Part shown: one piece after another, positions 1,776 to 45,867 of the stretch
Numbering within the stretch: position 1 is the stretch's first letter
Layout: the number at the start of each line of letters is the position of its first letter
Virus record (IMG/VR): IMGVR_UViG_3300031111_000010
Span: 1 to 64,000 of that record
Length of the DNA: 64,000 nucleotides
Strand: one strand, 5' to 3'
Source: a virus
Translations under genes and position numbers: made by a program
Notes under the pieces: generated by a model
The model's database searches: none
What the model was told of the DNA's origin: nothing
The model's input: the letters and a program-made list of their open reading frames with translations, nothing else

Positions 1776-1791
1776 AATTATAAATAATAGT

Positions 1792-2220
1792 ATGAAGTAC
1801 ATAACCATATTGGTATTTCTAATCTTCTCATTAGCTACAAATGCTTTTGCAGAATGGGAGAAGAAAGATTATGTTACCTATTTCGGCACAACAGATCAAA
1901 CGATTACATGTGCTTGGGATGCAGTAGAAAATGCTGAAGGGTATCAAGTAGAATTATATCATGTTGAACGTGACTCAATAACAAGAGTTGCATCAGAAGG
2001 CTTGACAGATACCCAAATTGTATTATCTTTACCAAGAAGTGGTCATTTTGTACCAAGGATAAGAGCATGTGCTGATTATCCAGCATGTGAAACTTACAGT
2101 GAATGGTCAGAATCCACTAATTCAGAGGTTGCATCAGTAGATGGACAACCTAGAGCTTGGTGGATATATGGTTATGTTGCACCACCGGGACCAATAATTA
2201 TAGGAATAGGAGGAAATTAA
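1792..2220 (+). CDS. Secreted/periplasmic FN3-like protein, 142 aa
   Basis: The first 20 residues form a textbook Sec signal peptide (K then a hydrophobic stretch ending T-N-A-F-A before E-W). The rest reads as a single fibronectin-III-like beta sandwich (A-W-D-A-V-E-N-A-E-G-Y-Q-V-E then W-S-E-S-T near the end). A clear Shine-Dalgarno is missing at both plausible ATGs (1750 and 1792); I chose the one that gives a compact signal peptide. A phage-encoded exported protein may modify the host envelope; that is inference. Confidence 0.65.
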   Translation: MKYITILVFLIFSLATNAFAEWEKKDYVTYFGTTDQTITCAWDAVENAEGYQVELYHVERDSITRVASEGLTDTQIVLSLPRSGHFVPRIRACADYPACETYSEWSESTNSEVASVDGQPRAWWIYGYVAPPGPIIIGIGGN

Positions 2221-9295: not shown

Positions 9296-9640
9296 TTAGA
9301 GCTTGAAATCATCCTCTCCAAATTCATCATGAATCGAATGTTCCCGAATGAACTTATCAGCCCATATATTTTTTGCTTCATCACTATGACCATACCCAAC
9401 ACCAGTATATTCATCAATATATTGTTTTGCTTCTTTCAACCCCCATCCTGTTTGTGCTCTTACTTCTTTAATAGCAGCAATCTTTCTACCAGCACGAATC
9501 TCATTAGCAATAGCCATTACATCTGAGAATTTACCACCATATACTATTTTACCTTCACCAAATACAAAATCATTTGGATTGATATCTGATATAACAATAC
9601 AAATACCTCTACCGGGAATATTCATCAATTCACTTTTCAT
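9296..9640 (-). CDS. Ribosomal L7/L12 C-terminal-like domain protein, 114 aa
   Basis: Residues 55-75 (K-I-A-A-I-K-E-V-R-A-Q-T-G-W-G-L-K-E-A-K) match the helix-turn of the L7/L12 C-terminal domain (known pattern K-x-x-V-R-x-x-T-G-L-G-L-K-E-A-K), the part that recruits translation factors. It ends E-F-G-E-D-D-F-K-L, the C-terminal tag shared by many small genes here. It is last in its operon, so the tag is not needed for coupling. Such domains in phages may contact translation GTPases; inference. Confidence 0.75.
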   Translation of the reverse strand: MKSELMNIPGRGICIVISDINPNDFVFGEGKIVYGGKFSDVMAIANEIRAGRKIAAIKEVRAQTGWGLKEAKQYIDEYTGVGYGHSDEAKNIWADKFIREHSIHDEFGEDDFKL

Positions 9641-10117: not shown

Positions 10118-10476
10118 TTTCTTTCTCTTTCGATCTTCAATAGTGGGTTACCATCAATTATATCATCAGCCATATCGACATCCCATAAACCAGTACGTTC
10201 AGCTAAATCATAAGCATCTATTTTCCATTTATCATGCTTATCAAGATAATCAAGACGTTCACTACTCATATCCCATTGACCAGTATCAAAATAGGCACGA
10301 TCTACCTCAGAAACCTCTCTCCTTGGCGTAAAACCACCCTTATGAGCTTTAATACCTTTCATATATCGTTTGAAAGTATGCTTTACACCACCAGTGATAT
10401 CCCAAGGCCAATATGGTAAATGATCCTTAATCCATTTCCAGACATCTTTCGGATATATTTTCTTATCCCAATTCAT
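10114..10476 (-). CDS. Hypothetical protein, 120 aa
   Basis: Trp-rich N-terminus (W-K-W-I-K-D-H-L-P-Y-W-P-W) and charged body rich in D/K. No family recognised. It overlaps the barrel gene by four bases (ATGA) and the SWIM-finger gene in the same way, so the three are translationally coupled. Confidence 0.65.
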   Translation of the reverse strand: MNWDKKIYPKDVWKWIKDHLPYWPWDITGGVKHTFKRYMKGIKAHKGGFTPRREVSEVDRAYFDTGQWDMSSERLDYLDKHDKWKIDAYDLAERTGLWDVDMADDIIDGNPLLKIERERK

Positions 10477-10682
10477 AGTGCAAACTCCATTTCAGTAAAG
10501 AAATCATCACTTCTCACATTGGCAGCTTCTGCTTTTACTTCCCGAATATGCTTGCATTCAGCCCTGCGAAACTTCCAATGTGGACATGAGCAACCCCATG
10601 TTTCACCATCATCAGCCAAACTAACAACATACTCACGGTCAGAACTGTGACTTTTGACATACCACCTTGATACCCATTTCAT
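10473..10682 (-). CDS. SWIM-type zinc-finger protein, 69 aa
   Basis: W-G-C-S-C-P-H-W-K-F-R-R-A-E-C-K-H-I (residues 29-46) is the CxC...CxH SWIM finger seen in DNA-associated proteins. Ends D-F-F-T-E-M-E-F-A-L, a variant of the shared C-terminal tag whose ATGGAG also serves as the ribosome site of the next gene. Confidence 0.75.
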   Translation of the reverse strand: MKWVSRWYVKSHSSDREYVVSLADDGETWGCSCPHWKFRRAECKHIREVKAEAANVRSDDFFTEMEFAL

Positions 10683-14910: not shown

Positions 14911-15162
14911 TTATTCCCCTTTCTTTTTTATTACAAATATACGTTCAAACCATGACCAATCCAAACTACCAAAAAATCTACTCACTAAAACACATATCTT
15001 AATCAGCCACCAAAAAGGACCATGAACCAATATCGTATACCAATGAACACCATCTAAATCAGGATCAACCCCTCTATCGTTTTCATCTCTCCATTCTATA
15101 TATCGATACAAACCAATAATAGCCCATATCCCTAATACGATTGATTTAAAAAGTAAACTCAT
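14911..15162 (-). CDS. Membrane protein, 83 aa
   Basis: Hydrophobic segments at residues 3-18 and 48-66 around an acidic loop (D-E-N-D-R-G-V-D-P-D-L-D). Overlaps the upstream gene by four bases. Unknown. Confidence 0.6.
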   Translation of the reverse strand: MSLLFKSIVLGIWAIIGLYRYIEWRDENDRGVDPDLDGVHWYTILVHGPFWWLIKICVLVSRFFGSLDWSWFERIFVIKKKGE

Positions 15163-15491
15163 ATCTCAAAATCCTTTAAATCAAACATAGCAAAAGGACA
15201 ATACACAACACCATTTTCATTTATTATATATTGTTTACCTGTATCCATATCCTCTATACCATATAACATAATACGGCTACCACCATCATAATCTTTATTC
15301 TCATCACCATGCCTTGCCTTTGCTACAATTCGATATGTCTTATTTTCTTTAGGTAAATATTTCTCATGATTATATCCACGACCATTACAATCATTAACCC
15401 ATTTAGTCAATCTCATATATTCAGCCATATTCCTATAGCTAGTATATGTACATCCATTTTTAATCACTATGAGAAAATCACCAATTTCCAT
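15159..15491 (-). CDS. Hypothetical protein with tag-like C-terminus, 110 aa
   Basis: Beta-rich, with G-R-G-Y-N-H-E-K-Y-L-P then a barrel-like second half. Ends F-A-M-F-D-L-K-D-F-E-I, a diverged form of the shared C-terminal tag. ATGA overlap with the next gene. Confidence 0.65.
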   Translation of the reverse strand: MEIGDFLIVIKNGCTYTSYRNMAEYMRLTKWVNDCNGRGYNHEKYLPKENKTYRIVAKARHGDENKDYDGGSRIMLYGIEDMDTGKQYIINENGVVYCPFAMFDLKDFEI

Positions 15492-15846: not shown

Positions 15847-16074
15847 TCATACCTCCATTTCTTTCTCATTTAAAAATTCATCTTTTTCTATTGATAAAAA
15901 GAACATATTAAAAAAAGGCCAATCCATCTGATGATCTTTAGTAGCTATATCACTAACTGAAATAGGATACTTCTGATATCCTTCTTTAACCCTATATCGA
16001 TATATCTCACCTTCTCTACAAAATATATCACCATCATTCAAATATCCATCCTCTATGCATTTACAATATTTCAT
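15847..16074 (-). CDS. C-terminally tagged small protein, 75 aa
   Basis: Start M-K-Y-C-K-C-I overlaps the upstream stop. Ends D-E-F-L-N-E-K-E-M-E-V, a clear copy of the shared tag; its ATGGAGGTATG also encodes the next ribosome site. The N-terminal half resembles a small beta protein with C-x-C. Confidence 0.65.
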   Translation of the reverse strand: MKYCKCIEDGYLNDGDIFCREGEIYRYRVKEGYQKYPISVSDIATKDHQMDWPFFNMFFLSIEKDEFLNEKEMEV

Positions 16075-16283
16075 AACACTATCATCCCAAATATCCCAAA
16101 GAACACACATTTTCCAATAATAACCCAATCCTGCATCTTAGCATTCTTAATAGCTTTATCAATATATTCAGGATAAATATACTTTTCTACTTTCTTTTTA
16201 TAATCATTTCTATACAAACGAATAAAAGGTTGAATACTTCCAATAGCATAAAGAACCAATGTAGTAATAATATACCATTTCAT
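16071..16283 (-). CDS. Two-span membrane protein, 70 aa
   Basis: Hydrophobic segments at residues 4-20 and 52-70 around a basic loop (K-K-K-V-E-K-Y). AAAGGGATTAAATT ribosome site. Overlaps the next start by four bases. Unknown. Confidence 0.6.
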   Translation of the reverse strand: MKWYIITTLVLYAIGSIQPFIRLYRNDYKKKVEKYIYPEYIDKAIKNAKMQDWVIIGKCVFFGIFGMIVL

Positions 16284-19719: not shown

Positions 19720-20037
19720 CTATGTTGGTGGGGGGTCAAGTATAGAAAATTCCTCAAAGGTAATAAAGTCTTTTTCTGCAAACCATTTTTCATGCCAACC
19801 AAAAGGATAGCCTTTCATTTTATGAGTATAGTTATGGAAATCATATTCTTTAAAGAAATGTGTTTCTCCCATCATCTCAATCATAGTGTTAGTTAATACC
19901 CAATCCAATTTTATTCTATTCAAGGTGATACTCATTCTTATTACACTACCGTCTTTATTCCATTTATCAGCTATAGGTTTAAAACGATTTTGGAATTGAT
20001 CTACTGTTATTAAGGTATATTTTATATATTCATTCAT
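19720..20037 (-). CDS. Small protein with extended C-terminal tag, 105 aa
   Basis: Near the end it reads E-K-D-F-I-T-F-E-E-F-S-I-L and then continues D-P-P-P-T, so the shared tag is followed by five extra residues. It is the last gene of the 19.7-33 kb block. The extra residues may come from loss of a stop codon. Otherwise unrecognised. Confidence 0.65.
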   Translation of the reverse strand: MNEYIKYTLITVDQFQNRFKPIADKWNKDGSVIRMSITLNRIKLDWVLTNTMIEMMGETHFFKEYDFHNYTHKMKGYPFGWHEKWFAEKDFITFEEFSILDPPPT

Positions 20038-20321
20038 AGCGTAAATTCATCCTTATCAATAAAGTTATCTACAGGTTCTTCTTTAATCCAATCGTCATGA
20101 TAAACCCAATGATCATCAGTAAGTTCTTGTACCCATCTATAGCCATTATTGTAATCATGTCTATGCCTACCACCTTCTATTAATGGTTGTACTTCTATGA
20201 TGGTTCCAAAGTATCGTATCATGTCTTTATTAATAAAGAAGTTGCCTTTATAATGATAACCATCAGATTCACTTCCATCTAAATAATCCAGTTCTGATAT
20301 ATTTTTTAATAATATTTTCAT
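20034..20321 (-). CDS. C-terminally tagged small protein, 95 aa
   Basis: Ends V-D-N-F-I-D-K-D-E-F-T-L (shared tag). The body has beta character with a G-G-R-H-R-H-D-Y-N-N-G-Y-R-W-V loop. ATGA overlaps both neighbours. Function unknown. Confidence 0.65.
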   Translation of the reverse strand: MKILLKNISELDYLDGSESDGYHYKGNFFINKDMIRYFGTIIEVQPLIEGGRHRHDYNNGYRWVQELTDDHWVYHDDWIKEEPVDNFIDKDEFTL

Positions 20322-20698
20322 ACGCTAAACTCACATTGTTTGATGAATCCTATATCTCTATTATGGTACATCGACTTCCATATATTTCTAAAGTAATTTC
20401 TATCCACATCTTTAGTCCATATGCTGTTATGTTGTTTTAAATATCTACCATGGATATCTGTAGCATAATTGGATATAAAGAAGATAGCATTAGTATCACC
20501 TGTACGTTGCCAGTATTCCCTTATTACATCACGGTACATAAAATCATCCTTGGCATCTATATTAGTCATGAAGGATAGACCCTTGTTTTTTATAAAGTCA
20601 GTATCAGGACCGGCTGAATGATTTTTATATGGTGGTACATTTAATCTATCATAGTGACCATGGATAAAATCTGAGGATTTTTCATTCCAATAACTCAT
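20318..20698 (-). CDS. C-terminally tagged small protein, 126 aa
   Basis: Ends D-I-G-F-I-K-Q-C-E-F-S-V, a diverged copy of the shared tag. Aromatic and His-rich body. The four-base overlap architecture continues. No family recognised. Confidence 0.65.
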   Translation of the reverse strand: MSYWNEKSSDFIHGHYDRLNVPPYKNHSAGPDTDFIKNKGLSFMTNIDAKDDFMYRDVIREYWQRTGDTNAIFFISNYATDIHGRYLKQHNSIWTKDVDRNYFRNIWKSMYHNRDIGFIKQCEFSV

Positions 20699-20976
20699 AA
20701 TACAAACTCACTTTCTTCTATGAACTCTTGATCTTTTGCATATATTATTCCTGTCCTATGTTCATATCCATAACAAGTAGATTTATCATTATCGATACTT
20801 ATTAAACCGGGACATGAATAACAGTCATTACATTTACCGGGACAGAAACGATCTATTTTGGTTATTATTCCTTTTTTTCTTTTTTCATTTTCAGTTTCAG
20901 GATAACCTACATAAACCTTTATTTCCATACCTATCTTTAGATGTTCATATGCATCATGTTTGTAGTAGATACTCAT
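20695..20976 (-). CDS. C-terminally tagged Cys-cluster protein, 93 aa
   Basis: Small beta domain (K-I-G-M-E-I-K-V-Y-V-G-Y) with C-P-G-K-C-N-D-C-Y-S-C-P, a likely metal site, and the tag D-Q-E-F-I-E-E-S-E-F-V-L, identical in its last eight residues to the next gene's product. Confidence 0.7.
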   Translation of the reverse strand: MSIYYKHDAYEHLKIGMEIKVYVGYPETENEKRKKGIITKIDRFCPGKCNDCYSCPGLISIDNDKSTCYGYEHRTGIIYAKDQEFIEESEFVL

Positions 20977-21488
20977 AATACAAACTCACTTTCTTCTATA
21001 AATAATTTTCTTGGTCTTTCTTTCTTTAATGGTTCTAATTCTTTCTTTATTGCTATATATTCATTTAAAGATGTTATTGCTGGTCTTTGAATACCGAAAA
21101 AATTCTCTTGACTTTCTATCCTTCTTACTATGCTTTTTATCTGTGAATGTTTTGCTTCTAGATGTCTTAGATGTTCCAGTTTCTTTCTGTAATAGGAATA
21201 AAGAGCATCTTGTTTTGATCTATAGGCAAATAGCTTTCTTGGTGTAATATTATGTTCCAATTGCTTTTTTATCCATTTCTTGTATCGTGTATTAACTTCA
21301 TTTGTATGGTAATGATAGTCTGGTACGATCCAATAGCCTTCAGGGGTTTCTCTGTATGCTCTATATCTGTTTTCTATTGGTTCTGCATTATAGCTTCCAG
21401 AACATGGGTCTTGATATCGATAGAAATAGATTTCTTCTCTTATCTCTATTGGTGCCATCTCATCAAATCGTAGTGGGAATATGTTCAT
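20973..21488 (-). CDS. C-terminally tagged protein, 171 aa
   Basis: Tyr/Arg-rich N-terminal half, coiled-coil middle (Y-Y-R-K-K-L-E-H-L-R-H-L-E-A-K-H), and tag K-L-F-I-E-E-S-E-F-V-L. Longest of the early tagged set. Unknown. Confidence 0.65.
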   Translation of the reverse strand: MNIFPLRFDEMAPIEIREEIYFYRYQDPCSGSYNAEPIENRYRAYRETPEGYWIVPDYHYHTNEVNTRYKKWIKKQLEHNITPRKLFAYRSKQDALYSYYRKKLEHLRHLEAKHSQIKSIVRRIESQENFFGIQRPAITSLNEYIAIKKELEPLKKERPRKLFIEESEFVL

Positions 21489-21676
21489 AGTTCCATATCG
21501 CTTTCTGTTATGAAATTATTATTTGTACATAATTTTTCCATATCATCTATTTGAACATAGTGAGCAGCACAATAAAATGGTAGAGTATCTACATCTAGAG
21601 TTGTAATTTTGTTTACTCTCAGATTACAGCAATAGTCAGTGTATCGTTTTCTACCTGTTACCGGACAAGTTATCAT
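21485..21676 (-). CDS. C-terminally tagged small protein, 63 aa
   Basis: C-P-V-T-G-R-K-R-Y-T-D-Y-C-C near the start and C-A-A-H at residue 38 suggest a zinc site. Ends N-N-F-I-T-E-S-D-M-E-L (tag). Confidence 0.65.
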   Translation of the reverse strand: MITCPVTGRKRYTDYCCNLRVNKITTLDVDTLPFYCAAHYVQIDDMEKLCTNNNFITESDMEL

Positions 21677-22176
21677 AGTTGCATATCGCTTTCTGAAAGG
21701 AAGTCACCTAACTTCTCTCTTTCTTCTTTGCATAGTGGGCATTCTTTATGGAATCTGGTATCATAGAATACTGTATTATCACCATGCTTAGTACATTGAG
21801 TAAATATATTATATATTCCCGGTTCACCTTCTCTAAGTTCTTGGAGTCTTTTGATTGCTTTATCTATTTCTTTTATATCATCTATATCTATTTCTGCTGA
21901 TGATTGATTGGAATAGGTAGAAGCAGAAGAAGAACCAAAAGATATAGGAGATAATCGATCAGATATAGGAGATAATCGATCAACCCTTTTGGGAATATCG
22001 ATATCACCGTATTCATCTGTCATTATTGAATGATGTATAGGCCATTTGAATTCAGGTTCTTCTGTAGGTTTTCTTGAAATGAAATTAAGTTCTCTTTCCT
22101 TCCAGTAGTTAACAGGATCAGTTTTTTCTTTGATTGCCTTATATACATTCTCATATAAGTCTTTGAATTTCCACAT
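21673..22176 (-). CDS. C-terminally tagged protein, 167 aa
   Basis: Ser-rich middle with a duplicated R-L-S-P-I-S-D/F segment (residues 66-79). C-T-K-H-G and C-P-L-C near the end form a small zinc knuckle. Ends G-D-F-L-S-E-S-D-M-Q-L (tag). AAGGATATAAAT ribosome site. Confidence 0.65.
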   Translation of the reverse strand: MWKFKDLYENVYKAIKEKTDPVNYWKERELNFISRKPTEEPEFKWPIHHSIMTDEYGDIDIPKRVDRLSPISDRLSPISFGSSSASTYSNQSSAEIDIDDIKEIDKAIKRLQELREGEPGIYNIFTQCTKHGDNTVFYDTRFHKECPLCKEEREKLGDFLSESDMQL

Positions 22177-22233
22177 ATTTATATCCTTATATATACCTTT
22201 TTATATACTTTTTTATTTTTCAGAAAGTGAGTA

Positions 22234-22407
22234 TTATTTTATATATCTCTTAGCAGTAAAAGCAATGAACGGATAAAATAATACGATTGTAAAAAACTGC
22301 TTTACATATTCCCATAGAGTAGTATTCGATCTTTGCTCTTGGGTAATTACTATTAGCCATATGATTAATCCACATACAAAATATATTCCAAGTAAAAATG
22401 ATATCAT
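22234..22407 (-). CDS. Small two-span membrane protein, 57 aa
   Basis: Hydrophobic segments at residues 3-21 and 38-52. ATG overlaps the stop of the upstream tagged gene (ATATGATA). Recovered from the bases, as the frame is short. Confidence 0.6.
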   Translation of the reverse strand: MISFLLGIYFVCGLIIWLIVITQEQRSNTTLWEYVKQFFTIVLFYPFIAFTAKRYIK

Positions 22408-22718
22408 ATTTCCATTTCCTTTTCGTTTATAAAGTCTTCTGGTTCTGGTTCTGCTACTTGAATATTAGAAACTTTACAATAATGTCCTTTTGATTTCTCC
22501 CACCATTGTAAACATTTTGAACACAGGTAATATTGTTTTTTGCCTCTATCACCTTGACCCCAATATATCTGTATTGGAATTTCTACTTTCTTCTCATGAT
22601 ACATACAGGAAGATAGACTATAAGTTTCATCCTTGCTTGAAATATAATGTCCAAGTTTATGACAATGTTCAGTTGAAAAATTATAATGAACACATGATAA
22701 ACAAATTAAATCACTCAT
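22404..22718 (-). CDS. C-terminally tagged zinc-knuckle protein, 104 aa
   Basis: C-L-S-C near residue 6, H-C and C-M-Y-H downstream, and C-S-K-C near residue 66: two metal sites likely. Ends E-D-F-I-N-E-K-E-M-E-I (tag). Confidence 0.65.
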   Translation of the reverse strand: MSDLICLSCVHYNFSTEHCHKLGHYISSKDETYSLSSCMYHEKKVEIPIQIYWGQGDRGKKQYYLCSKCLQWWEKSKGHYCKVSNIQVAEPEPEDFINEKEMEI

Positions 22719-23125
22719 AGTTCCATATCTTTCTCAGTGAGAAATTCCTCTCTTGGTTCTGTTTTTAATTGTATCTCCCATCTTCCATTTAAAAATATGT
22801 ATTTTATTTGACCTAATTGTGGCTTATTGGGAATTACGTTTCGTATCTTTATATCACCTTCTCTTGGTTCCCTTCTATGTCTATTATCACCAAGAGGACC
22901 ATATGTTGCCCATCCATCAGAGTTAAGTACTGATATATTTTCACCCCATCGTTCTCTAAATTCCTGTTCTCTCCTTGCAAGATGCTCTCTCATTCTTCCT
23001 TGAACATTGGCATGTGTTCTAAGCCTATCCAGATGTTCATTGTATTTTTTATTTTCTTTGTATTTAATAAAGAAAATAACAACCCATGCAAGAACTATTA
23101 TACCCATAAGAATAAATCGTATCAT
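22715..23125 (-). CDS. C-terminally tagged membrane-anchored protein, 136 aa
   Basis: One N-terminal membrane helix (residues 2-20), an Arg-rich cytoplasmic region, and tag R-E-E-F-L-T-E-K-D-M-E-L. It shows that the tag also occurs on membrane proteins, presumably on the cytoplasmic side. Confidence 0.65.
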   Translation of the reverse strand: MIRFILMGIIVLAWVVIFFIKYKENKKYNEHLDRLRTHANVQGRMREHLARREQEFRERWGENISVLNSDGWATYGPLGDNRHRREPREGDIKIRNVIPNKPQLGQIKYIFLNGRWEIQLKTEPREEFLTEKDMEL

Positions 23126-23217
23126 TAAAATACTCCTTTAAAACAGAAATCAATAATAGAATATCCCACAATGAAAAATACTAATATCATAAACAATAAA
23201 ACAAGTTGTGCTCTCAT
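23125..23217 (-). CDS. Tiny membrane protein, 30 aa
   Basis: M-R-A-Q-L-V-L-L-F-M-I-L-V-F-F-I-V-G-Y: a single hydrophobic helix. GAGGTAATGAC ribosome site and TAATG overlap with the next gene. Confidence 0.5.
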   Translation of the reverse strand: MRAQLVLLFMILVFFIVGYSIIDFCFKGVF

Positions 23218-23330
23218 GTCATTACCTCACTTATAAAATATAATAGTTTATTGATATAAGGAAAAATCATTTCCAATCCACCAAAGAAAATAAACATCAA
23301 CGCAAACCATATTATAAGTCCTGCTATCAA
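23214..23330 (-). CDS. Possible tiny membrane protein, non-ATG start, about 38 aa
   Basis: Open frame with two hydrophobic stretches ending F-I-S-E-V-M-T. The first usable codon is TTG at 23330, or ATT at 23363 behind AGGAGATTTAAA. Start uncertain; the four-base overlap with the next gene supports translation. Confidence 0.35.
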   Translation of the reverse strand: MIAGLIIWFALMFIFFGGLEMIFPYINKLLYFISEVMT

Positions 23331-23353
23331 ACCACAACTATCTTTCGCTATTC

Positions 23354-23740
23354 TTATAATAATTTTAAATCTCCTGTGATTAAATCGATTTCATCAGACC
23401 ACCAAGGACCAATAGCACAACAGGTATAAGTAGGTTCCTTAAATTCAGTCCTACCGGCATCCTTGATCAATGCACAAGGTATCTTTCTGAACTTGGCATG
23501 ATCATGTACAAAAATCAATACATCTTCATTAGGAACACCAACACATATCTTTACAAATGATTCTTCAAGCCATTGTTGAGCAGGATCATTCTTAGGAATA
23601 AAGATTCTATATTCCTTACTGCCTGAAGCATAGCAATTCAACAAAACAGCTAATGATGCATGAGCACCTTGAGCAACCATTTTACCTTTTCTCATATTAA
23701 GGTCTTTTCTCATTACGATAACTTGTTTAACTTCTCTCAT
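23354..23740 (-). CDS. Peptidyl-tRNA hydrolase, Pth2 family, 128 aa
   Basis: K-Q-V-I-V-M-R-K-D-L-N-M-R-K-G-K-M-V-A-Q-G-A-H-A-S (residues 4-28) is the Pth2 signature (K...R.DL.M.KGK..AQ..HA). The C-terminal D-A-G-R-T-E-F and C-A-I-G-P strands complete the fold. Pth2 releases peptides from stalled peptidyl-tRNA and is the archaeal/eukaryal type, sporadic in phages. ATG at 23740 follows AAAGG. Part of the tRNA-maintenance genes here. Confidence 0.9.
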   Translation of the reverse strand: MREVKQVIVMRKDLNMRKGKMVAQGAHASLAVLLNCYASGSKEYRIFIPKNDPAQQWLEESFVKICVGVPNEDVLIFVHDHAKFRKIPCALIKDAGRTEFKEPTYTCCAIGPWWSDEIDLITGDLKLL

Positions 23741-23904
23741 ATTTCGTTTACCTTTAACCATTCTTTATATGCATGTGTATACTTTCTTGGATTCAGTTGG
23801 GTATAAAATACAAGTGTATCTCTATCGATTTCATATCCATCAGCATTAATAATATCAGTTTTAACTGAATCTTCTCCCATATAATATATTTTAAATTCTC
23901 TCAT
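23737..23904 (-). CDS. Hypothetical protein, 55 aa
   Basis: Start M-R-E-F-K-I-Y-Y-M follows AAAAGGAAAT inside the tag codons of the upstream gene. Small beta protein. Overlaps the Pth2 gene by four bases. Confidence 0.6.
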   Translation of the reverse strand: MREFKIYYMGEDSVKTDIINADGYEIDRDTLVFYTQLNPRKYTHAYKEWLKVNEI

Positions 23905-24092
23905 ATTTCCATTTCCTTTTCTTCTATGAACTCTATTGCTTCCCAATAAAGATATTCCCTATCAATACAATGAAGTGTACCTGAGAAATAAACATCATTG
24001 GGTATGCCCTCATATTTCTCTCTATCGATACACCATCCTACTGAACATCCACCCCTTTGACCATGCTTACATGTACTACAACTTATTTCCAT
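23901..24092 (-). CDS. C-terminally tagged Cys-rich protein, 63 aa
   Basis: C-S-T-C-K-H, C-S-V-G-W-C and another Cys suggest a metal site. Ends A-I-E-F-I-E-E-K-E-M-E-I (tag). Confidence 0.65.
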   Translation of the reverse strand: MEISCSTCKHGQRGGCSVGWCIDREKYEGIPNDVYFSGTLHCIDREYLYWEAIEFIEEKEMEI

Positions 24093-24475
24093 TATAACAT
24101 CATTTCACTTTCAGATATAAAAGCCTTTGCTGGTTTGACATACATTCTTTTTGTAACAAACTTCTTTTTTTCGTATTCAGCTTCCCATTTAATATCAGCC
24201 AGTGTAATGTTATGTGGTATCTCTTTTACTATCCTATATATACCCCTGTCAATAATTTTTAAATAACCAGCACCTGTCAGATAGCTTCGATATGTATCTA
24301 CAGTTCTCTCTTTATAACCATTTCCAACACATTCCATCATTAAATTATATCTAAATATTATATTGTGATCAAATCTTTCATTGATATAATTTCGCATAAA
24401 ATCCAGAAGTGGTACTCTACCTCTTGGTCTATATCTTGGTAAATCTTCAGGCATCTCTATTCTAAATCCCGGCAT
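24092..24475 (-). CDS. C-terminally tagged protein, winged-helix-like, 127 aa
   Basis: K-E-R-T-V-D-T-Y-R-S-Y-L-T-G-A-G-Y-L-K-I-I-D-R-G-I-Y-R resembles a winged-helix (helix-wing) element, so DNA binding is possible. Ends A-K-A-F-I-S-E-S-E-M-M-L (tag). ATG at 24475 follows AAGG with 8-base spacing. Confidence 0.6.
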   Translation of the reverse strand: MPGFRIEMPEDLPRYRPRGRVPLLDFMRNYINERFDHNIIFRYNLMMECVGNGYKERTVDTYRSYLTGAGYLKIIDRGIYRIVKEIPHNITLADIKWEAEYEKKKFVTKRMYVKPAKAFISESEMML

Positions 24476-24644
24476 GTGTATCACCTTGTTGTACTTCTAA
24501 TAATCTTTCAAGTTCAGTTACTTGTCTGACCAAATCCTGAATCATCTTCTCTTTTTGTTCTACATTATATCGTAGTGACTCTATAAGAGAATCTTTATCT
24601 TCTTCTATTTCTTCTGGTTCATTTCCAAGTATATCATTGAACAT
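24462..24644 (-). CDS. Coiled-coil small protein, 60 aa
   Basis: Acidic N-terminus (G-N-E-P-E-E-I-E-E-D-K-D-S) and a heptad coiled coil to residue 52. AAAGGAAGATTTTT precedes the ATG, encoded within the tag of the upstream gene. Confidence 0.6.
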   Translation of the reverse strand: MFNDILGNEPEEIEEDKDSLIESLRYNVEQKEKMIQDLVRQVTELERLLEVQQGDTHAGI

Positions 24645-24909
24645 AAAAATCTTCCTTTGTTAAAAAATTGGCTTGTGGTCCTGTACATTCATATGGTAAT
24701 CTTTCTTCTGATAATACTTCTCCTTCCTGATTAAAGTATATAAGGTTATGCCATCTCATATGACCACTACCGCTTTTCTGTACGCCTTTCATCAAACCAC
24801 AATACCTACATACCTTTACTTCATCCACCATGATAATTTTGGTTCCTATCCTATGTTGTTTTCTGACTTTACATCGATCCTTCTTCTCTTTTTTCCAACT
24901 ATGTCTCAT
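24634..24909 (-). CDS. C-terminally tagged zinc-knuckle protein, 91 aa
   Basis: Basic N-terminus and C-R-Y-C-G-L near residue 34, with a downstream H-M-R-W-H. Ends A-N-F-L-T-K-E-D-F-Y-V-Q, a tag with a one-residue variation at the end. It overlaps the coiled-coil gene by 11 bases. Confidence 0.65.
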   Translation of the reverse strand: MRHSWKKEKKDRCKVRKQHRIGTKIIMVDEVKVCRYCGLMKGVQKSGSGHMRWHNLIYFNQEGEVLSEERLPYECTGPQANFLTKEDFYVQ

Positions 24910-25175
24910 ATCAAATACATTCCTATCACACCACTAATATATACCATAAAATATGCAAAGAAAACATACATAGAAACTTTATCTTTTATATTAACCAAAA
25001 AAAGCAATGGAAGACAATATAAAATTCTCATCAGCATTGCTTTATTTAATGTCCATCCAAAATAATTCATACACCACAAAATAAAACTATTACTTTCTTC
25101 TCCAATAAAAATCGTGAAGACTGAATCTAATATAATTAATAAAAACAATGCTATTGTCCATTTTCTAATTCTCAC
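24906..25175 (-). CDS. Multi-span membrane protein, 89 aa
   Basis: Three hydrophobic helices. L-D-S-V-F-T in the first helix recalls small DUF5658-type membrane proteins, but this is not certain. Overlaps both neighbours by four bases. Confidence 0.6.
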   Translation of the reverse strand: MRIRKWTIALFLLIILDSVFTIFIGEESNSFILWCMNYFGWTLNKAMLMRILYCLPLLFLVNIKDKVSMYVFFAYFMVYISGVIGMYLI

Positions 25176-25555
25176 AGTTTCATATCACTTTCTTCTATAA
25201 ATTCTTTATCTTCTTTATCTAACCTGAAAGGGAATTTTAAAGGTTTCCATTCGTTTCTCATTTTCGTTGATTGATATTCTATTACTAATTTTTCCAGTTC
25301 CCTTCTTTTCCATTCTATATTATAATCATTTAATGCAGGTTCAACACAATATTGAAGTTCTCTTACTATGATATCAAATGCTCTTTGAGATATCCTTCTG
25401 CCTCTAAACATCTGTATGACACGTTCAATCAATCTATCTTCAGTTCGATGTACTTCCCTTTGATATAATTCTCTTTCTCTTTCTCTCTCCAATCTTTCAT
25501 ACTGTCCATTGAGAATTCTTCTTTGAACTTCATTCCAATCATTATTAGGTGCCAT
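25172..25555 (-). CDS. C-terminally tagged Arg/Glu-rich protein, 127 aa
   Basis: Highly charged helical protein (Y-E-R-L-E-R-E-R-E-R-E-L-Y) ending D-K-E-F-I-E-E-S-D-M-K-L (tag). Unknown. The start abuts the upstream stop. Confidence 0.65.
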   Translation of the reverse strand: MAPNNDWNEVQRRILNGQYERLERERERELYQREVHRTEDRLIERVIQMFRGRRISQRAFDIIVRELQYCVEPALNDYNIEWKRRELEKLVIEYQSTKMRNEWKPLKFPFRLDKEDKEFIEESDMKL

Positions 25556-26268
25556 TATATCTCATCCATTGAAAAGATAATTGAATTGCTTTTCAGTTCC
25601 ATTATCTCTTTTCTTAATGATCTTACTTTATTTTCCAACTTACCAATCATGTTATTTCTCTTTAATACCCTATCCTTATAATCTGAAATTATTTCTTCTT
25701 TTCTTTCAAGCGAATCATATAAATTCTCTAATTCCATTTTTACATCACATTCATCACAATCAACACGATTACTGAAATGACCAGTTTCAATAAAATCATC
25801 CATCATACGTTGCATCATAAAAGCACTATTACCAGCTACTTCAAATAGTCTGTTCAGGAACATAATCATAGAATCTTTATTCACATGATCTTTCCAACCT
25901 CTGATTTGTGTATGCATATCATCCTTTGTTTCGAAAACCGCTTTTGTTTCTTCTTGGATTTGTGCTTGAACTCTGGCATGTAATTCTTCTCTTACATCCC
26001 AAACAGAAGACTCTTGAGAATCTTCTGTTTCTCTTTCCATCATTATTCTTCTTATTAATTCACTACGGTTCTGTCTTTCCGTAGTATTACTTTCTGCTGC
26101 TCTACGTTCTAGATTAGCTGCCATTTCCATGACTTCAAAAGGTCTTAATGATTTACTAAAATTATTAAGTTTTATCCATCCATTATTAGAACGAATATTA
26201 GGAAAACGCCCATGAAGATTATGATAAGCTGTTGTATAACGTCTTATTGCTGACACAGTTTCATTCAT
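25555..26268 (-). CDS. Coiled-coil protein, 237 aa
   Basis: N-terminal helical domain and long C-terminal coiled coil (residues 175-230). C-D-E-C near residue 172 may bind metal. Ends N-S-I-I-F-S-M-D-E-I, perhaps a decayed tag. AAGGTAGAATAAA ribosome site. No family recognised. Confidence 0.6.
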   Translation of the reverse strand: MNETVSAIRRYTTAYHNLHGRFPNIRSNNGWIKLNNFSKSLRPFEVMEMAANLERRAAESNTTERQNRSELIRRIMMERETEDSQESSVWDVREELHARVQAQIQEETKAVFETKDDMHTQIRGWKDHVNKDSMIMFLNRLFEVAGNSAFMMQRMMDDFIETGHFSNRVDCDECDVKMELENLYDSLERKEEIISDYKDRVLKRNNMIGKLENKVRSLRKEIMELKSNSIIFSMDEI

Positions 26269-26333
26269 TTTATTCTACCTTTATATTTTCTTGAAATTCT
26301 CCATCCTCTACTGCCAGTTCCATACGATTGTTC

Positions 26334-26681
26334 TCATATTTCACCTATATCATCAAATAAATTTTCTTCTTCTTTTTCTGGTGGTAAATCAATCCAACTA
26401 CCATCATCTGTATTCCAACCATCACTACCTGCATTCCAAGAATCACCTGTATCCCAAAGGGTATCTTTATTTTCAGCAACCATATATAATGATTTCAATT
26501 CATTATCCCATTCATACATATTTCCAGTTTTTATAAAGATTTCTTCCAATAGCTCATTAGAATAATAGCTACTTGGAAAATTCTCTGATTCTGTTACTCT
26601 AATCCATACCCCTCTTTTCTCTAATTCTCTATCAGGAAATACACTTTTGTATAGCTTCATTACAGATTCTATTTTATTCAT
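26334..26681 (-). CDS. Hypothetical acidic protein, 115 aa
   Basis: Second half is Asp/Trp/Gly-rich (D-T-G-D-S-W-N-A-G-S-D-G-W-N) and the end is acidic (E-N-L-F-D-D-I-G-E-I). ATGA overlap with the DUF4326 gene. Unknown. Confidence 0.6.
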   Translation of the reverse strand: MNKIESVMKLYKSVFPDRELEKRGVWIRVTESENFPSSYYSNELLEEIFIKTGNMYEWDNELKSLYMVAENKDTLWDTGDSWNAGSDGWNTDDGSWIDLPPEKEEENLFDDIGEI

Positions 26682-27055
26682 AATCCATATACTCCTATCT
26701 TAGCTTCACCATGACCACAAGTAGGACATTTTTCTTCGACCAACCAATAGTTAACATGGAATTTGTTAAGTAATACTTGTTTGATTATATCGGCATGGCA
26801 GGGTTTAGGTGAGCAGTAGCAAATGAGATTACACTTACCATGTTCAATTAGATATGCTTCGATAATCTGCAATGCTGAGATTATTGGTCTATCACGCTTT
26901 TGGATAGCGTTCTTAAGCATTGCTCCATATCGTTGAAGTACGATAGGTCTTAATTCTTCATCTGTTAACTTAAACGGATTGGCTAACGGTGAAGGTCTAC
27001 CTACATAAAATCCATCTCCTGTCCAATTTTTTTTGTTGCGTACAGTGATTTCCAT
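26678..27055 (-). CDS. DUF4326 family protein, 125 aa
   Basis: V-G-R-P-S-P-L-A-N-P-F near residue 18 and C-Y-C-S-P-K-P-C-H-A-D-I-I near residue 80 are the conserved pieces of DUF4326, a small family frequent in phages and mobile elements with unknown chemistry. A C-terminal C-P-T-C-G zinc knuckle is added. GGAGAAGAA ribosome site. Confidence 0.8.
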   Translation of the reverse strand: MEITVRNKKNWTGDGFYVGRPSPLANPFKLTDEELRPIVLQRYGAMLKNAIQKRDRPIISALQIIEAYLIEHGKCNLICYCSPKPCHADIIKQVLLNKFHVNYWLVEEKCPTCGHGEAKIGVYGL

Positions 27056-27067
27056 TTCTTCTCCATA

Positions 27068-27376
27068 TCATAACCTCATTTCTCCATCGGTTAAGAATTT
27101 TTCTATTATTTTTTCATATACATGCAAAACATATCTTGGACTACATATCACAGTTTTGATGAATTGTAAATGATTATCATCAAAAACACTACCAGTATGC
27201 ATTGTATAGAATTCTCTTACTTCTGTATTATCTCTGTTTCTTTTATCTATCTCAAACCAGATATTTAAATCTCTATTAATCATAGCGATATTTAATACTT
27301 TTGATTTTACAGGAACAAGTAATCTTGTTGATGTTTCATGTCCATATTGTAATGAATATTTCCATATTATCTTCAT
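27068..27376 (-). CDS. C-terminally tagged protein, 102 aa
   Basis: Beta-rich body ending I-E-K-F-L-T-D-G-E-M-R-L (tag). The next gene starts 13 bases later with its own GGAGAAG, so here the tag is not used as an overlapping start. First protein gene downstream of the tRNA pair. Confidence 0.65.
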   Translation of the reverse strand: MKIIWKYSLQYGHETSTRLLVPVKSKVLNIAMINRDLNIWFEIDKRNRDNTEVREFYTMHTGSVFDDNHLQFIKTVICSPRYVLHVYEKIIEKFLTDGEMRL

Positions 27377-29763: not shown

Positions 29764-30612
29764 TTAATAATCACTTGTAATCGTTAAATGAAAAGGCATG
29801 TCAGTCAGTTTCCTACGGGTCCATAGATAAGTATCCACATCACCAATATGCCATCCTAATTCTTCTCTCATCTTCTCACATACTCTAATTGTTGCTGCTC
29901 TAATCTGGATTTCCTCAAGCGAATTTTTGGGTATCAGTTTCCCTTCATATATATCTTCTTCTAATGAAGGTGAATATTGAAGGCACCCAAAATGCCTGAG
30001 AATTTTTGGTACTTGATAATCTGCTGGTACAGGTAATACTATATCTTTATACCATTCAAACTTACGGTAAATCTGAATAAAGAATAACGATGCTCTTTTT
30101 AAAAAGATATCAGATGCAAATCCTTGAAAGTATCTACACATCATATCAATATCAGCATTTTTATTAACTACTTCTCTGGCAAAGTTCTCACCCTTTTGAT
30201 CTTCCAGTAATTCCAATAGATGTCTTTTTCGTTCTTCAAGCATGGGAAATCTATTAACTGAAAGCAATTCAATCAAAGTATATATAACCTTAGAAAATCT
30301 TGTATCATAAGACTTGGATAGTTTAAATGCATACTCAAGGCATTCATACATTGCTGTAGAGGATACATTGTTAGGTCTGATATCAGATACACCATACCAG
30401 TAACAATAGTTGATTGAGCTTGCTACCAGTTCCTTTAATACTTCATTATATATACCTATCTGATACTTCTCATTATCATCAAAGAATTTCGGTGGTCCAT
30501 CTTTTCTCATTCTCTCAATTACTCTATCTACAGTAGACCAAGCTATTTTTACATATTCAGGTTTTGTAGCTAACGCCTGATCTGCAACTTCAAATACATT
30601 TTTTATAATCAT
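29764..30612 (-). CDS. Queuosine-salvage (Qng1/DUF2419) family protein, 282 aa
   Basis: Strong motif agreement with the queuosine 5'-phosphate N-glycosylase family: P-M-L-E-E-R-K-R-H-L, F-L-K-R-A, A-D-Y-Q-V-P-K-I-L-R-H-F-G-C-L-Q-Y-S, E-I-Q-I-R-A-A and M-P-F-H-L-T. Family members release the base queuine from Q nucleotides for reuse in tRNA. Length is close to the family's usual 300-340. Lies between tRNA-repair genes, so it probably serves tRNA wobble modification. A DNA-modification role is less likely without other deazaguanine genes here. Confidence 0.82.
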   Translation of the reverse strand: MIIKNVFEVADQALATKPEYVKIAWSTVDRVIERMRKDGPPKFFDDNEKYQIGIYNEVLKELVASSINYCYWYGVSDIRPNNVSSTAMYECLEYAFKLSKSYDTRFSKVIYTLIELLSVNRFPMLEERKRHLLELLEDQKGENFAREVVNKNADIDMMCRYFQGFASDIFLKRASLFFIQIYRKFEWYKDIVLPVPADYQVPKILRHFGCLQYSPSLEEDIYEGKLIPKNSLEEIQIRAATIRVCEKMREELGWHIGDVDTYLWTRRKLTDMPFHLTITSDY

Positions 30613-40533: not shown

Positions 40534-40551
40534 CATTTTCTCCTGTTATAA

Positions 40552-43407: not shown

Positions 43408-43415
43408 TATTTATA
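43408..43415 (-). promoter_or_regulatory. T4-type late promoter TATAAATA
   Basis: Exact octamer on the minus strand overlapping the stop of the upstream adhesin gene; drives the sheath-lectin fusion. Confidence 0.7.
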
Positions 43416-45867
43416 AAATAAAAGGTTCAGTTGGTACTGTGAAATCAGATTTATATAAACATTTATATTTAGTAACTCTCCATTCATCCCAATAACTTCT
43501 AAAATTCTCAGAACCAGCGTTATTTCCTCCAAAATGAAATCTAGTTTGTGTTAAATCATTTCCATTATCTCCATGAGTTTCTTCTGTTATTCTTATACCA
43601 TTTACAAAATATCTCCATATATAACCTTCTCTTGTTAAAGCTATATGACTCCATACATCATTAGCTATAACTGCTCCATTAGAAGGAGAAACTACATTTA
43701 CATAAACACCAGAACCATATGTTTGAACAAATAATACACAAGGACTTGATGTAGCTTCATGTATAATCCAAAGACCACCTGCTGTAGCATTATTTCCTAT
43801 TTGAAAAACTCTACCATATGCATCTCCCAATCCATTATTAGCTGGTCTTATCCATCCTTCAATAGTAAAGTCTTCTGTTCTTAATGCTTCTGGTGGGAGA
43901 GCAGTTCTAGAAAGTAAAGTATCCGTATCACCATCACATCCTAAAGAAGAAGACCCAAATTTGAATTGTGCTGTTCTCAATCCAGCATTATCATAATGAC
44001 CAAAAGCATCTAATCCACGAACATCATCATCTACTACTTGACTAAGGTTTGGTCCTTCAAAATGGACAAGAGATATAACTTTAGCACTTGTACTTGAAGA
44101 ACTACTCACTGAATTTGATGAACTACTAAATGAGCTTGAAGATTCAGAAGAACTTGAAGAACTCTCACTTGAAGAAGAAGAACTATATGATCCTTCTATA
44201 AGCATGTGATCATTAAAAATATACATTGTTGTTTTATTTTTATTTGTATCTAATAGGTCATCTAAAACTCTCCATTCAGCAACTATACCATCCCATCTTG
44301 AATTTGGATTATTAATTAATCCACCTAATCCAAAATTATAATCATCATAATCATCATTTCCTGAAGAACCAGTACCATCATCATAGAAAATCTCACCTAA
44401 ATATACTTTAGGATTAGTTACTGTCATAGTTTGAGAATAAGAATACCATACATCACCTGATGCTGTATCACTAAAACTAGTACTTCTACCACCAGTTACA
44501 TTACACCATGCTCTTGCAGGATTAGTTGTATCATACCACAAACATCTATCATTTTGACCCATAAAAGGACCACTAGCAGTAGTTTTTATTGCAGGATCAT
44601 TATCAGCTTTAAAGAACATTTCTATTTGAGCAGATGTATAAAATCTTGTTTTCTTAATATTAGTATCAAGATATTGATCAACACCATTGAAATGCCATCC
44701 ATAACCCATTGGTGTATCTTCTACCCATGCACTTGCTGGTAAAGTATTTGTTATATTAAAACTTCCATTTGCTGAATTATAAAAAGTAGATGCACTTGCT
44801 GGTTCATCAAAGTGTATTACTTGTCTATATTGTTGATTATTTCCAAGTACAGCTTCACTCCATACTGATTGTGCTGGTGTAGTTCCTTTTATACCAACAT
44901 TAGCTGAATTATCAACACCATCAATTCTCACTATTATGTTTCTATTTACACCTATATTTAAAGGCATAGCAAACCAAATTATAGGATTACCAGTATTCCA
45001 ATTTAATATCTCAGCAGGATATTCAGTACCATCTGATGCTAATTTTATATGTAAATTCTCTAATGGTTTTCCACTTTGAACTATTGGAGATGTTTCATCA
45101 AGTTTTAACATTACAGGATAAACATTATTTCTGAATATATTAGCACCACTTGTATGATAAAATAGTTCTATTGGTGTAAATGAGAAAGAGCTTGAGCTTG
45201 ACGATAAACTTGAGCTTGAGCTTGAGCTTGAAGAACTATAACTTGAGCTTGAGCTTGAGCTTGAAGAACTTAGGCTTGAAGATGAAGATGATCGTTCTGA
45301 TTCGCTACTTGATGATTTACTACTTGAACTAAACTCAATTGACCATGCTGTATCTCTTACATAGAAGTAATCATAATTGAAATTGACAGTACTTTCTAAT
45401 AACACATCTCCTTCATGTTGAGAAAAAGAAACTTCTCCCATTGTGCTAGGCCAGATACCTACAAAGATAACTTCTAATATTGCATATCCATAATTATTAG
45501 TGACAACAAGAGAACAATCAACTGAATACTCATCATGATATTCAGATATTTTATTGTTATTATTGTTAATATAACTCATCCAATCGAATAATAATTTCCA
45601 ATTATAAAGCAATGAATCGACAGTAAAGCTAACCATCCATGGATCATATTCCATTGGTATCATTCCACGCTTTGTTTTATTACCTTGCCATCTATGTTCT
45701 TCATTTGCTAAAGTAATTGATGGAAGCATTGTGGTATGGATATTCATAATAAATGGATTATTAGCACCGATAGAATTCTCACCGGGAATTAATGGAAACA
45801 CTAATTGATAATTCGTAGGTGTTCCCTTATCCATATTATTCAAATTTGATGTGTTACATACTATCAT
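43411..45867 (-). CDS. Tube-fold-anchored modular adhesin A, 818 aa
   Basis: Residues 1-180: tail-tube-like domain (F-V-G-I-W-P-S-T-M-G-E-V-S-F then F-N-Y-D-Y-F-Y-V, as in gp19). 181-232: poly-Ser. About 235-545: DUF2341-like plus LamG-like modules. About 549-590: poly-Ser. 595-818: C-terminal LamG (F-T-I-E-G-W-I-R-P, W-R-V-T-K). No ribosome site; the late promoter abuts the ATG. Likely tail-displayed receptor or glycan-binding protein. Confidence 0.8.
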   Translation of the reverse strand: MIVCNTSNLNNMDKGTPTNYQLVFPLIPGENSIGANNPFIMNIHTTMLPSITLANEEHRWQGNKTKRGMIPMEYDPWMVSFTVDSLLYNWKLLFDWMSYINNNNNKISEYHDEYSVDCSLVVTNNYGYAILEVIFVGIWPSTMGEVSFSQHEGDVLLESTVNFNYDYFYVRDTAWSIEFSSSSKSSSSESERSSSSSSLSSSSSSSSSSYSSSSSSSSSSLSSSSSSFSFTPIELFYHTSGANIFRNNVYPVMLKLDETSPIVQSGKPLENLHIKLASDGTEYPAEILNWNTGNPIIWFAMPLNIGVNRNIIVRIDGVDNSANVGIKGTTPAQSVWSEAVLGNNQQYRQVIHFDEPASASTFYNSANGSFNITNTLPASAWVEDTPMGYGWHFNGVDQYLDTNIKKTRFYTSAQIEMFFKADNDPAIKTTASGPFMGQNDRCLWYDTTNPARAWCNVTGGRSTSFSDTASGDVWYSYSQTMTVTNPKVYLGEIFYDDGTGSSGNDDYDDYNFGLGGLINNPNSRWDGIVAEWRVLDDLLDTNKNKTTMYIFNDHMLIEGSYSSSSSSESSSSSSESSSSFSSSSNSVSSSSSTSAKVISLVHFEGPNLSQVVDDDVRGLDAFGHYDNAGLRTAQFKFGSSSLGCDGDTDTLLSRTALPPEALRTEDFTIEGWIRPANNGLGDAYGRVFQIGNNATAGGLWIIHEATSSPCVLFVQTYGSGVYVNVVSPSNGAVIANDVWSHIALTREGYIWRYFVNGIRITEETHGDNGNDLTQTRFHFGGNNAGSENFRSYWDEWRVTKYKCLYKSDFTVPTEPFIL

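Follow-up and report, generated by a model that had tools for sequence, protein, structure and literature searches.

A C-terminal peptide tag on otherwise unrelated small proteins of a T4-like phage, with distinct forms in related genomes

The window analyzed here is a 64,000-nucleotide stretch of viral DNA (IMG/VR record IMGVR_UViG_3300031111_000010, positions 1 to 64,000). It comes from a T4-like phage known from metagenomes alone, about 17 of whose otherwise unrelated small proteins bear a C-terminal tag; the tagged genes are predictions from metagenomic DNA. Between positions 19720 and 27376, 14 genes carry a tag with the consensus F-[IL]-x-E-x-[DE]-[MF]-x-[LIV]. It is exactly terminal in 12 (20034, 20318, 20695, 20973, 21485, 21673, 22404, 22715, 23901, 24092, 25172, and 27068, each gene being named by its first coordinate) and near-terminal in 24634 and 19720. 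The tagged genes of the window are listed below, with tag codon positions in parentheses.

27068..27376, minus strand: 102-aa DUF7352/phrog_3848 protein ending FLTDGEMRL (27071-27097)
25172..25555, minus strand: 127-aa protein ending FIEESDMKL (25175-25201)
24634..24909, minus strand: 91-aa zinc-binding-like protein, FLTKEDFYV followed by one extra Q (24640-24666)
24092..24484, minus strand: 130-aa protein ending FISESEMML (24095-24121), with a TAATG overlap rather than ATGA
23901..24092, minus strand: 63-aa Cys-rich protein ending FIEEKEMEI (23904-23930)
22715..23125, minus strand: 136-aa protein with an N-terminal membrane-anchor-like segment, ending FLTEKDMEL (22718-22744)
22404..22718, minus strand: 104-aa zinc-knuckle-like protein ending FINEKEMEI (22407-22433)
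21673..22176, minus strand: 167-aa protein ending FLSESDMQL (21676-21702)
21485..21676, minus strand: 63-aa Cys-rich protein ending FITESDMEL (21488-21514)
20973..21488, minus strand: 171-aa protein, phrog_13631 (function unknown), ending FIEESEFVL (20976-21002)
20695..20976, minus strand: 93-aa Cys-rich protein ending FIEESEFVL (20698-20724)
20318..20698, minus strand: 126-aa protein ending in the diverged tag FIKQCEFSV (20321-20347)
20034..20321, minus strand: 95-aa protein ending FIDKDEFTL (20037-20063)
19720..20037, minus strand: 105-aa protein, FITFEEFSI (19741-19767) followed by the six residues LDPPPT
15847..16128, minus strand: 93-aa protein ending FLNEKEMEV (15850-15876)
15159..15491, minus strand: 110-aa protein ending in the weak tag MFDLKDFEI
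10473..10682, minus strand: 69-aa SWIM zinc-finger protein ending FFTEMEFAL (10476-10502)
9296..9640, minus strand: 114-aa protein with an L7/L12 C-terminal-like segment, ending in the weak tag EFGEDDFKL, TAA stop

Every peptide quoted in the original prediction was found in its place, and the claim of at least 14 tagged genes in this region agrees with our count. Four genes outside it had also been named; the tag is clear in 10473 and 15847 and weaker in 9296 and 15159.

The tag is real and essentially restricted to protein ends. A relaxed regular expression, applied to 536 ORFs, matched 14 C-termini, where its internal frequency predicts 0.04. With a weight matrix, tags mostly score 18-28 and the best internal segment about 13. 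An unbiased comparison of C-terminal 10-mers gave 25 high-scoring pairs, compared with 1-3 internally. Position 4 deviates from E in three tags, namely 27068 (D), 20034 (K), and 20318 (Q), and the following [DE]-[MF]-x-[LIV] is invariant. Family search detected no homology between the bodies of the tagged proteins, which differ as originally claimed and include a SWIM zinc finger, DUF7352, an L7/L12 C-terminal-like segment, cysteine-rich knuckles, and a membrane anchor. AlphaFold2 assigned the tag residues pLDDT values below 50 after a better-predicted body, and the tags are predicted to sit on disordered tails.

Among viral contigs, a strict DNA pattern of the tag had no match; a relaxed pattern matched four, one of which is the tag-rich relative G032. 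The same pattern was absent from 50 further, mostly short contigs with capsid genes, and neither a 1614-aa tail protein nor the DUF7352 protein retrieved any relatives when used as a query. The tag is missing from G003, G004, and G005, which were reached through terminase. Tags are few or absent in the large relative contigs G003, G004, G008, and G041; the relevant part of the genome may be missing from some of them. No repeated C-terminal tag was found in T4 (about 105 kb) or in Proteus phage PM2 (about 64 kb), and none is present on a Proteus phage protein similar to the body of G016_52048, which is itself tagged.

Counterparts of several window genes are tagged. That of 25172 in G032 (G032_4886, 31% identical over the whole protein) ends FINEKEMEL, the orthologue of 24634 (G032_3859) ends FLNEDDFKI, and the G032 counterpart of 24092 (G032_1816) ends FLSEEEMRI. 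Orthologues of 10473 on other contigs all keep FFTE-[EM]-EF, with linkers of very different length. Weak body matches connect 20034 to G017_61868, which ends WVTEEDFAL, and 15159 to G016_70198, which ends FITDEDIEI.

Two larger relatives carry tags in their own dialects. An unbiased search gave C-terminal x-L-P-E-E-L-F-E-I in the 161-kb G016 (8 proteins; for example, WLPEELFEI) and [IV]-P-[ED]-x-[LM]-F-x-[ML] in the 204-kb G018 (12 strict cases, 15-17 in all; for example, IVPEELFKM). High-scoring pairs of C-terminal 10-mers numbered 15 in G016, compared with 2-4 internally, and 54 in G018, compared with 2-7 internally, some of the 54 coming from another paralogous family. With the G016 dialect matrix, the top 8 segments are all at most 3 residues from a C-terminus (next internal score 13.9), as are 17 of 17 segments scoring above 15 with the G018 matrix (next internal score 14.0). 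The second counterpart of 24092, G016_58233, ends HLPDSWFEI in the G016 dialect; the two orthologues score 22.4 and 26.8, respectively, in the dialects of their own genomes and at most about 3 in each other's. The link from the window dialect to those of G016 and G018 depends on position, this one clear orthologue pair, the mixed tag forms of G016, and the intermediate forms of G017; the three would be forms of one system.

Genome-specific dialects, together with an orthologue pair in which each member follows its own genome, fit proteins that dock to one co-evolving partner. The best explanation, which we consider likely, is that the tag is a short linear docking motif for a common partner. 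A large number of small early or middle proteins, unrelated to one another, would end in a flexible tail tipped with the docking peptide, which would tether each of them to that partner inside the infected cell; we infer that all tags of a genome bind one receptor co-evolving with them. Docking to a single partner had been proposed originally and is strengthened by the dialects as the best reading. A more elaborate version is tentative and falls short of probable: a C-terminal address peptide, in lineage-specific dialects, would bring early takeover proteins to one phage-specific receptor, and new small genes would gain function by acquiring the local tag.

The best specific guess at the partner is a sliding clamp, either phage gp45-type or host DnaN, with the tags as true clamp-binding motifs like the C-termini of T4 gp43, gp55, and gp33; judged by sequence resemblance, this is possible but rather doubtful. 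Such tags might recruit takeover or modifier proteins to the host fork or to phage DNA as it replicates. Genes for gp45-type clamps are at 151590-152339 in G016 and at 107201-108076 in G018. As in T4, the peptide is C-terminal, acidic and hydrophobic, and carried on a flexible linker (PMC2988020). Reported clamp-binding motifs take forms such as QxxLF, QADMF, QLDLF, and QLSLPL (PMC12309361). The cores PEELF, PDDLF, and PEDMF of G016 and G018 and EEDLF of G017 resemble xx[D/S][LM]F clamp motifs, and both the window's E-x-[DE]-[MF]-x-[LIV] and the relatives' [ED]-[ED]-[LM]-F resemble five- or six-residue clamp-binding peptides. Several tagged genes also lie among replication genes: in G016 they adjoin gp47, gp46, uvsX, and polymerase/helicase genes, and in G018 they are close to helicase and polymerase genes. 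However, the Q that is the hallmark of bacterial clamp motifs is missing from nearly all tags, and the window matrix gives the T4 gp43, gp55, and gp33 tails no more than background scores. With the dialect matrices, the polymerase tail ranks 41 of 585 in G016 and 298 of 677 in G018, and gp55 tails fare similarly or worse. The original suggestion of clamp docking is favored only in part: the [ED]-x-[LMW]-F core of the relatives' dialects is similar to known clamp-binding motifs, but the polymerase (..MIDSIFG, ..CFDIFF) and gp55 (..GIDYTVLKEEK, ..SIDYTLMR) tails of this family do not reach the scores of tags.

A tag that is short, C-terminal, and common to small early proteins could instead be a degron or protease-adaptor signal giving these proteins a shared short life, which we regard as unlikely. 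LAA-type tails are not acidic as the tag is. Extra residues also follow the motif (six in 19720, one in 24634, two each in G032_12522 and G011_1746, and 1-3 in G018), a rarity among C-degrons that depend on a free carboxylate.

Mimicry of the acidic tail of the phage SSB, gp32, by which tagged proteins would bind SSB-tail receptors, is very unlikely. The gp32 tails of G003 (EDFFDKMDIK) and G018 (DDILDELDKMLG) do score high with the window matrix, the fractions of background scoring at least as high being 0.001 and 0.005, but the match is post hoc. The gp32 of G008, a close relative, is marginal (0.057), those of T4, cyanophages, and Vibrio phages are at background, and the G018 gp32 ranks 19 of 677 under G018's own dialect. 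No gp32 was found in G016.

It is scarcely probable that the tag is a capsid-targeting sequence or prohead-protease site, with a gp21-like protease cutting the F-[IL]-x-E core of proteins that are packaged and injected. Capsid targeting was considered since T4 internal proteins II and III start MKTYQEFIAE and share the EFIxE core, and the phage has a gp21-like protease. The cleavage site [IL]-x-E occurs in most window tags but not in 27068, 20034, or 20318, whose tags lack E at position 4 and keep the invariant residues after it; other dialects differ at the site and have no F at position 1. A membrane anchor is present in one of the tagged proteins. A T4-type late promoter (TATAAATA) lies 5-50 nt upstream of 0 of 17 tag genes, compared with 9 of 40 structural minus-strand ORFs. 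The same genome also encodes a separate N-terminal tag, M[RK][FL]KxYLxE, which resembles the T4 capsid-targeting sequence and lies in a region with late promoters. The lack of late promoters and this distinct N-terminal tag disfavor a shell or capsid role, a compartment having been one of the partners originally offered.

It is extremely unlikely that the repeat serves translational coupling, as a ribosome-binding site with an ATGA overlap, and that the peptide is a mere by-product. The majority of window tags do run into the next start through ATGA, the last codon almost always has A as its third base (1.63 bits), and AAGGA-like sites can come from EKE or ESD codons. Yet the tag DNA is codon-periodic, with its information in codon positions 1 and 2. 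Synonymous sites are saturated at the F-[IL] codons of the window tags (pS 0.99, pN 0.13), which lie upstream of any ribosome site; over the whole tag, pS/pN is 0.88/0.21 in G016 and 0.60/0.28 in G018. The [MF] codons vary among ATG, TTT, and TTC, with ATA as well in G016. Tags end in ATGA, GTGA, TAATG, TAA, or TAG, with uncoupled followers too, and one is present before a 54-nt gap in G032_3859 and others before promoter-like sequence in G018. Because synonymous change is saturated and amino-acid change low, stops and downstream contexts vary, and orthologues keep the tag as linkers diverge, selection acts on the peptide and not solely on the ribosome site. A translational coupling signal was rejected as a candidate: conservation is neither nucleotide-level nor limited to genes with a coupled follower. 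Selection on the peptide had been predicted, to be given up if conservation were confined to nucleotides around the ribosome site or if tags were lost in relatives whose genes do not overlap; the synonymous versus nonsynonymous comparison bears it out, and such relatives keep the tag. The example of 27068 holds, as its follower is served by a separate GGAG ribosome site. That of 9296, said to lack a coupled follower, needs correction: an ATG directly follows its stop, in a doubtful ORF overlapping a plus-strand ORF. Capsid targeting, SSB-tail mimicry, and the ribosome-site artifact are weaker or excluded. As far-fetched as that artifact is a functionless peptide encoded by a recombination cassette, a common DNA linker for shuffling small genes: tag DNA is near-identical in the neighbors 20695/20973, 21485/21673, and 22404/23901, but across the set its synonymous divergence is too high for homologous recombination while the peptide is kept, and dialects hold genome-wide with pS up to 0.88.

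The genomes of large phages contain numerous small early genes that have neither a known function nor detectable homologues. A common, genome-specific docking tag would put many such orphan proteins into one interaction network, and a single tag peptide used as bait should show the partner of a dozen of them together. The tag also provides a sequence rule by which proteins of this kind can be spotted elsewhere in this phage group. Open-access papers searched for such a tag yielded no description of one.

Several known systems invite comparison. Encapsulin and microcompartment cargo-loading peptides likewise place one terminal peptide on unrelated cargo proteins, a likeness in principle only. 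The T4 capsid-targeting sequence is an address peptide on several phage proteins with the same EFIxE core, but it is N-terminal and removed by the gp21 protease, whereas the tags are all C-terminal, lack an invariant E, and have no late promoters. The SSB C-terminal tip and the T4 gp32 acidic tail are acidic and hydrophobic C-terminal peptides on which many partners dock, yet the known SSB tails of T4, cyanophages, and Vibrio phages do not score like tags. The T4 clamp-binding motif is a short acidic-hydrophobic C-terminal peptide on a flexible linker, interchangeable between unrelated proteins (PMC2988020, PMC7892883). It reads S-L-D-F-L-[FY] in the three T4 clients compared, and the tag consensus does not match its L-D-F-L-[FY]-like core, nor do the polymerase and gp55 tails of this phage family match the tag. 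Bacterial β-clamp motifs (QL[SD]LF, QADMF, QLSLPL) resemble the relatives' [DE]-[LM]-F and the window's E-x-[DE]-M-x-L; relative to Q-x-x-[LM]-F or Q-x-x-L-x-[LF], the tags fit the hydrophobic and acidic positions but not the Q and, unlike these motifs, run to the C-terminus with further fixed positions.

The original prediction of one shared C-terminal peptide, F-[IL]-x-[ED]-x-[DE]-[MF]-x-[LIV], on many otherwise unrelated small proteins of the window was confirmed and extended. All of the peptides it quoted occur in the sequence, and its count of at least 14 tagged genes at 19720–27376 (minus strand) stood. The tag is exactly C-terminal in 12 genes, named here by start coordinate, and is followed by further residues in two: one residue in 24634, and LDPPPT after DFITFEEFSI in 19720. 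Outside this interval, the tags of 10473 (a SWIM zinc-finger protein) and 15847 are clear, whereas those proposed for 9296 and 15159 proved weak. With a relaxed expression, 14 C-terminal matches were observed versus 0.04 expected from the frequency inside the same ORFs, and a weight matrix leads to a similar result.

The window derives from a viral metagenome record of 81,176 bases encoding T4-like head genes (terminase, portal, gp21-like maturation protease, scaffold, and major capsid protein). Small genes crowd the minus strand between about 9.3 and 29 kb, and structural genes occupy 36–81 kb. T4-type late promoters (TATAAATA), sought 5–50 nt before each ORF, precede nine of 40 structural minus-strand ORFs and four plus-strand genes; in the 9–36 kb minus-strand region, neither the 17 tag genes nor a further 51 ORFs were found to have one at this distance. 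Lacking late promoters, the tagged genes are probably early or middle genes. The tag cluster adjoins a queuosine-salvage-like protein and a DUF4326 protein (29764–30612 and 26678–27055, minus). Among the structural genes, two large proteins match the tail-tube family phrog_45 (noted together at 43411–45867, 45949–50793, and 53165–55039, minus), with the segment MIVCNTSNLNN opening both 43411 and 53165. Three neighboring genes kept in relatives (window 62831 to contig 67784, minus) include a PrkA/YeaG-like serine kinase, which Thermus phages also have, and a protein resembling a sporulation-protein-like family. Adjacent proteins at contig 75545–75817 and 75827–76264 (minus) both begin with M[AG]QLYENIIGR[DE].

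Selection on the peptide, as opposed to the ribosome site that its DNA could supply, was borne out. The tag DNA is codon-periodic, with strong conservation at codon positions 1 and 2 but not at position 3, except for the final A, which is part of the ATGA overlap. The F-[IL] codons, which lie upstream of any ribosome site, show a saturated pS of 0.99 and a pN of 0.13 (0.70 and 0.32 for the whole window tag). The [MF] position uses ATG, TTT, and TTC, and also ATA in one relative (G016). Downstream contexts vary among ATGA or GTGA overlaps, TAATG overlaps, TAA/TAG stops, and followers with their own ribosome site; in another relative (G018), a promoter-like sequence follows the tag, with no coupled gene. 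Because of this codon-periodic change and these varied contexts, a ribosome site accounts for only the last base or two.

A capsid-protein scan of viral contigs yielded 79 related loci, for many of which full contigs were read; the genomes compared are metagenomic contigs and their genes are predicted. One contig, G032, is colinear with part of the window and carries eight further tags, some ending with TAA/TAG stops or without overlap to the next gene; tags persist in relatives where genes do not overlap. Three pairs (24634/G032_3859, 24092/G032_1816, and 25172/G032_4886) keep the tag at about 30–35% body identity. Orthologues of 10473 in several other contigs all retain an invariant FFTE-x-EF core, and the finger-to-tag linker differs widely. 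AlphaFold2 assigns the tag of this family a pLDDT below 50, with a better predicted body, and the last 21 residues of the 24092 family also fall below 50. In a close relative (L033), a zinc-knuckle-like gene at 1694–1900 (plus) ends in FLNEKEFEI, about 1 kb upstream of terminase and not within any early cluster seen.

In an unbiased comparison, each C-terminal ten-mer was set against all others; this recovered the window tag and, unexpectedly, showed that two large relatives each have a different shared C-terminal peptide. In G016 (161 kb), eight proteins carry x-L-P-[ED]-[ED]-[LW]-F-E-I. In G018 (204 kb), the strict pattern [IV]-[IVL]-P-[ED]-x-[LM]-F-x-[ML] picks out twelve proteins, versus 0.17 expected, and a matrix 15–17, including an ORF of only 42 aa. 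Each of the 17 G018 segments with scores above 15, like each of the eight top G016 segments, ends at a C-terminus or no more than three residues before it (next-best internal scores, 14.0 and 13.9). The two matrices, each built from its own genome's tags, recognize each other's tags, and both sets score near zero under the window matrix. Tags of intermediate form occur in G017: W-L-E-[ED]-D-L-F-x-[LI] on two related proteins and W-V-T-E-E-D-F-A-L on another. The orthologues 24092 and G016_58233 each carry the dialect of their own genome. Synonymous sites have diverged within both sets (pS 0.88, pN 0.21 in G016; 0.60 and 0.28 in G018), so uniformity within a genome is not due to recent copying. 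G016 genes 43512 and 70198 have the window-like form, and the 174-aa protein of this pair weakly matches the body of 15159 (E 0.065). We infer that these dialects constitute one system. The peptide is probably a C-terminal docking tag; it is under selection at the amino-acid level, and several T4-like phages of this group carry it in genome-specific forms.

A number of candidate partners were compared post hoc. The tag may bind a sliding clamp: in G016, three tagged genes are interspersed with gp47, gp46, and uvsX and a fourth lies between the polymerase and helicase genes, and some G018 tagged genes lie near helicase and polymerase genes, but the polymerase and gp55 tails of both phages do not match their own genome's tags. 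Mimicry of the SSB tail was tested and came out weak. A capsid role is disfavored because the tag's protease-site E is not invariant, its genes lack late promoters, and the same phages carry a separate, N-terminal tag closely resembling the T4 capsid-targeting sequence MKTYQEFIAE. A C-degron is also disfavored, since residues after the motif are tolerated.

The N-terminal tag, M[RK][FL]KxY[LI]xE or M-x-L-[IV]-[ED]-K-Y-L-G-E, opens about 14 proteins and is widespread in relatives (at least 14 in G016); a late promoter directly precedes at least one such gene (13407). A third shared peptide, M-x-[YF]-[DN]-D-I-L-G, opens different small proteins, often beside C-tagged genes, and is possibly a docking motif like the C-terminal tag at the opposite protein end.

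Genes sharing N-terminal peptides
3083, 3730, 4374, 5041, 5999, 7338, 8067, 8294, 13407, plus strand, N-terminal tag
near 40536, 56446, 57473, 58201, 77899 of the contig, minus strand, N-terminal tag
window 24462–24644 (minus) and 1230–1547 (plus), M-x-[YF]-[DN]-D-I-L-G
G032 2927, 3423, 3608, 6719; G016 34198; G008 (a related contig) 52011, M-x-[YF]-[DN]-D-I-L-G

Another G018 set (e.g., 32763, 39794, 59745, 78228) has common N-termini such as MKI[ST]WDNID and common C-terminal segments (DGCNMKRERC or similar), and is probably a paralogous family.

No earlier case of such a tag was found in the open-access literature or in two controls, T4 (about 105 kb) and Proteus phage PM2 (about 64 kb). Bacterial clamp motifs follow QxxLF, with variants QADMF, QLDLF, and QLSLPL (PMC12309361); the cores PEELF, PDDLF, PEDMF, and EEDLF in relatives and E-S-D-M-x-L in the window are similar, although without the Q. 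T4 polymerase, gp55, and gp33 bind the clamp through C-terminal peptides that are interchangeable and sit on flexible linkers (PMC2988020).
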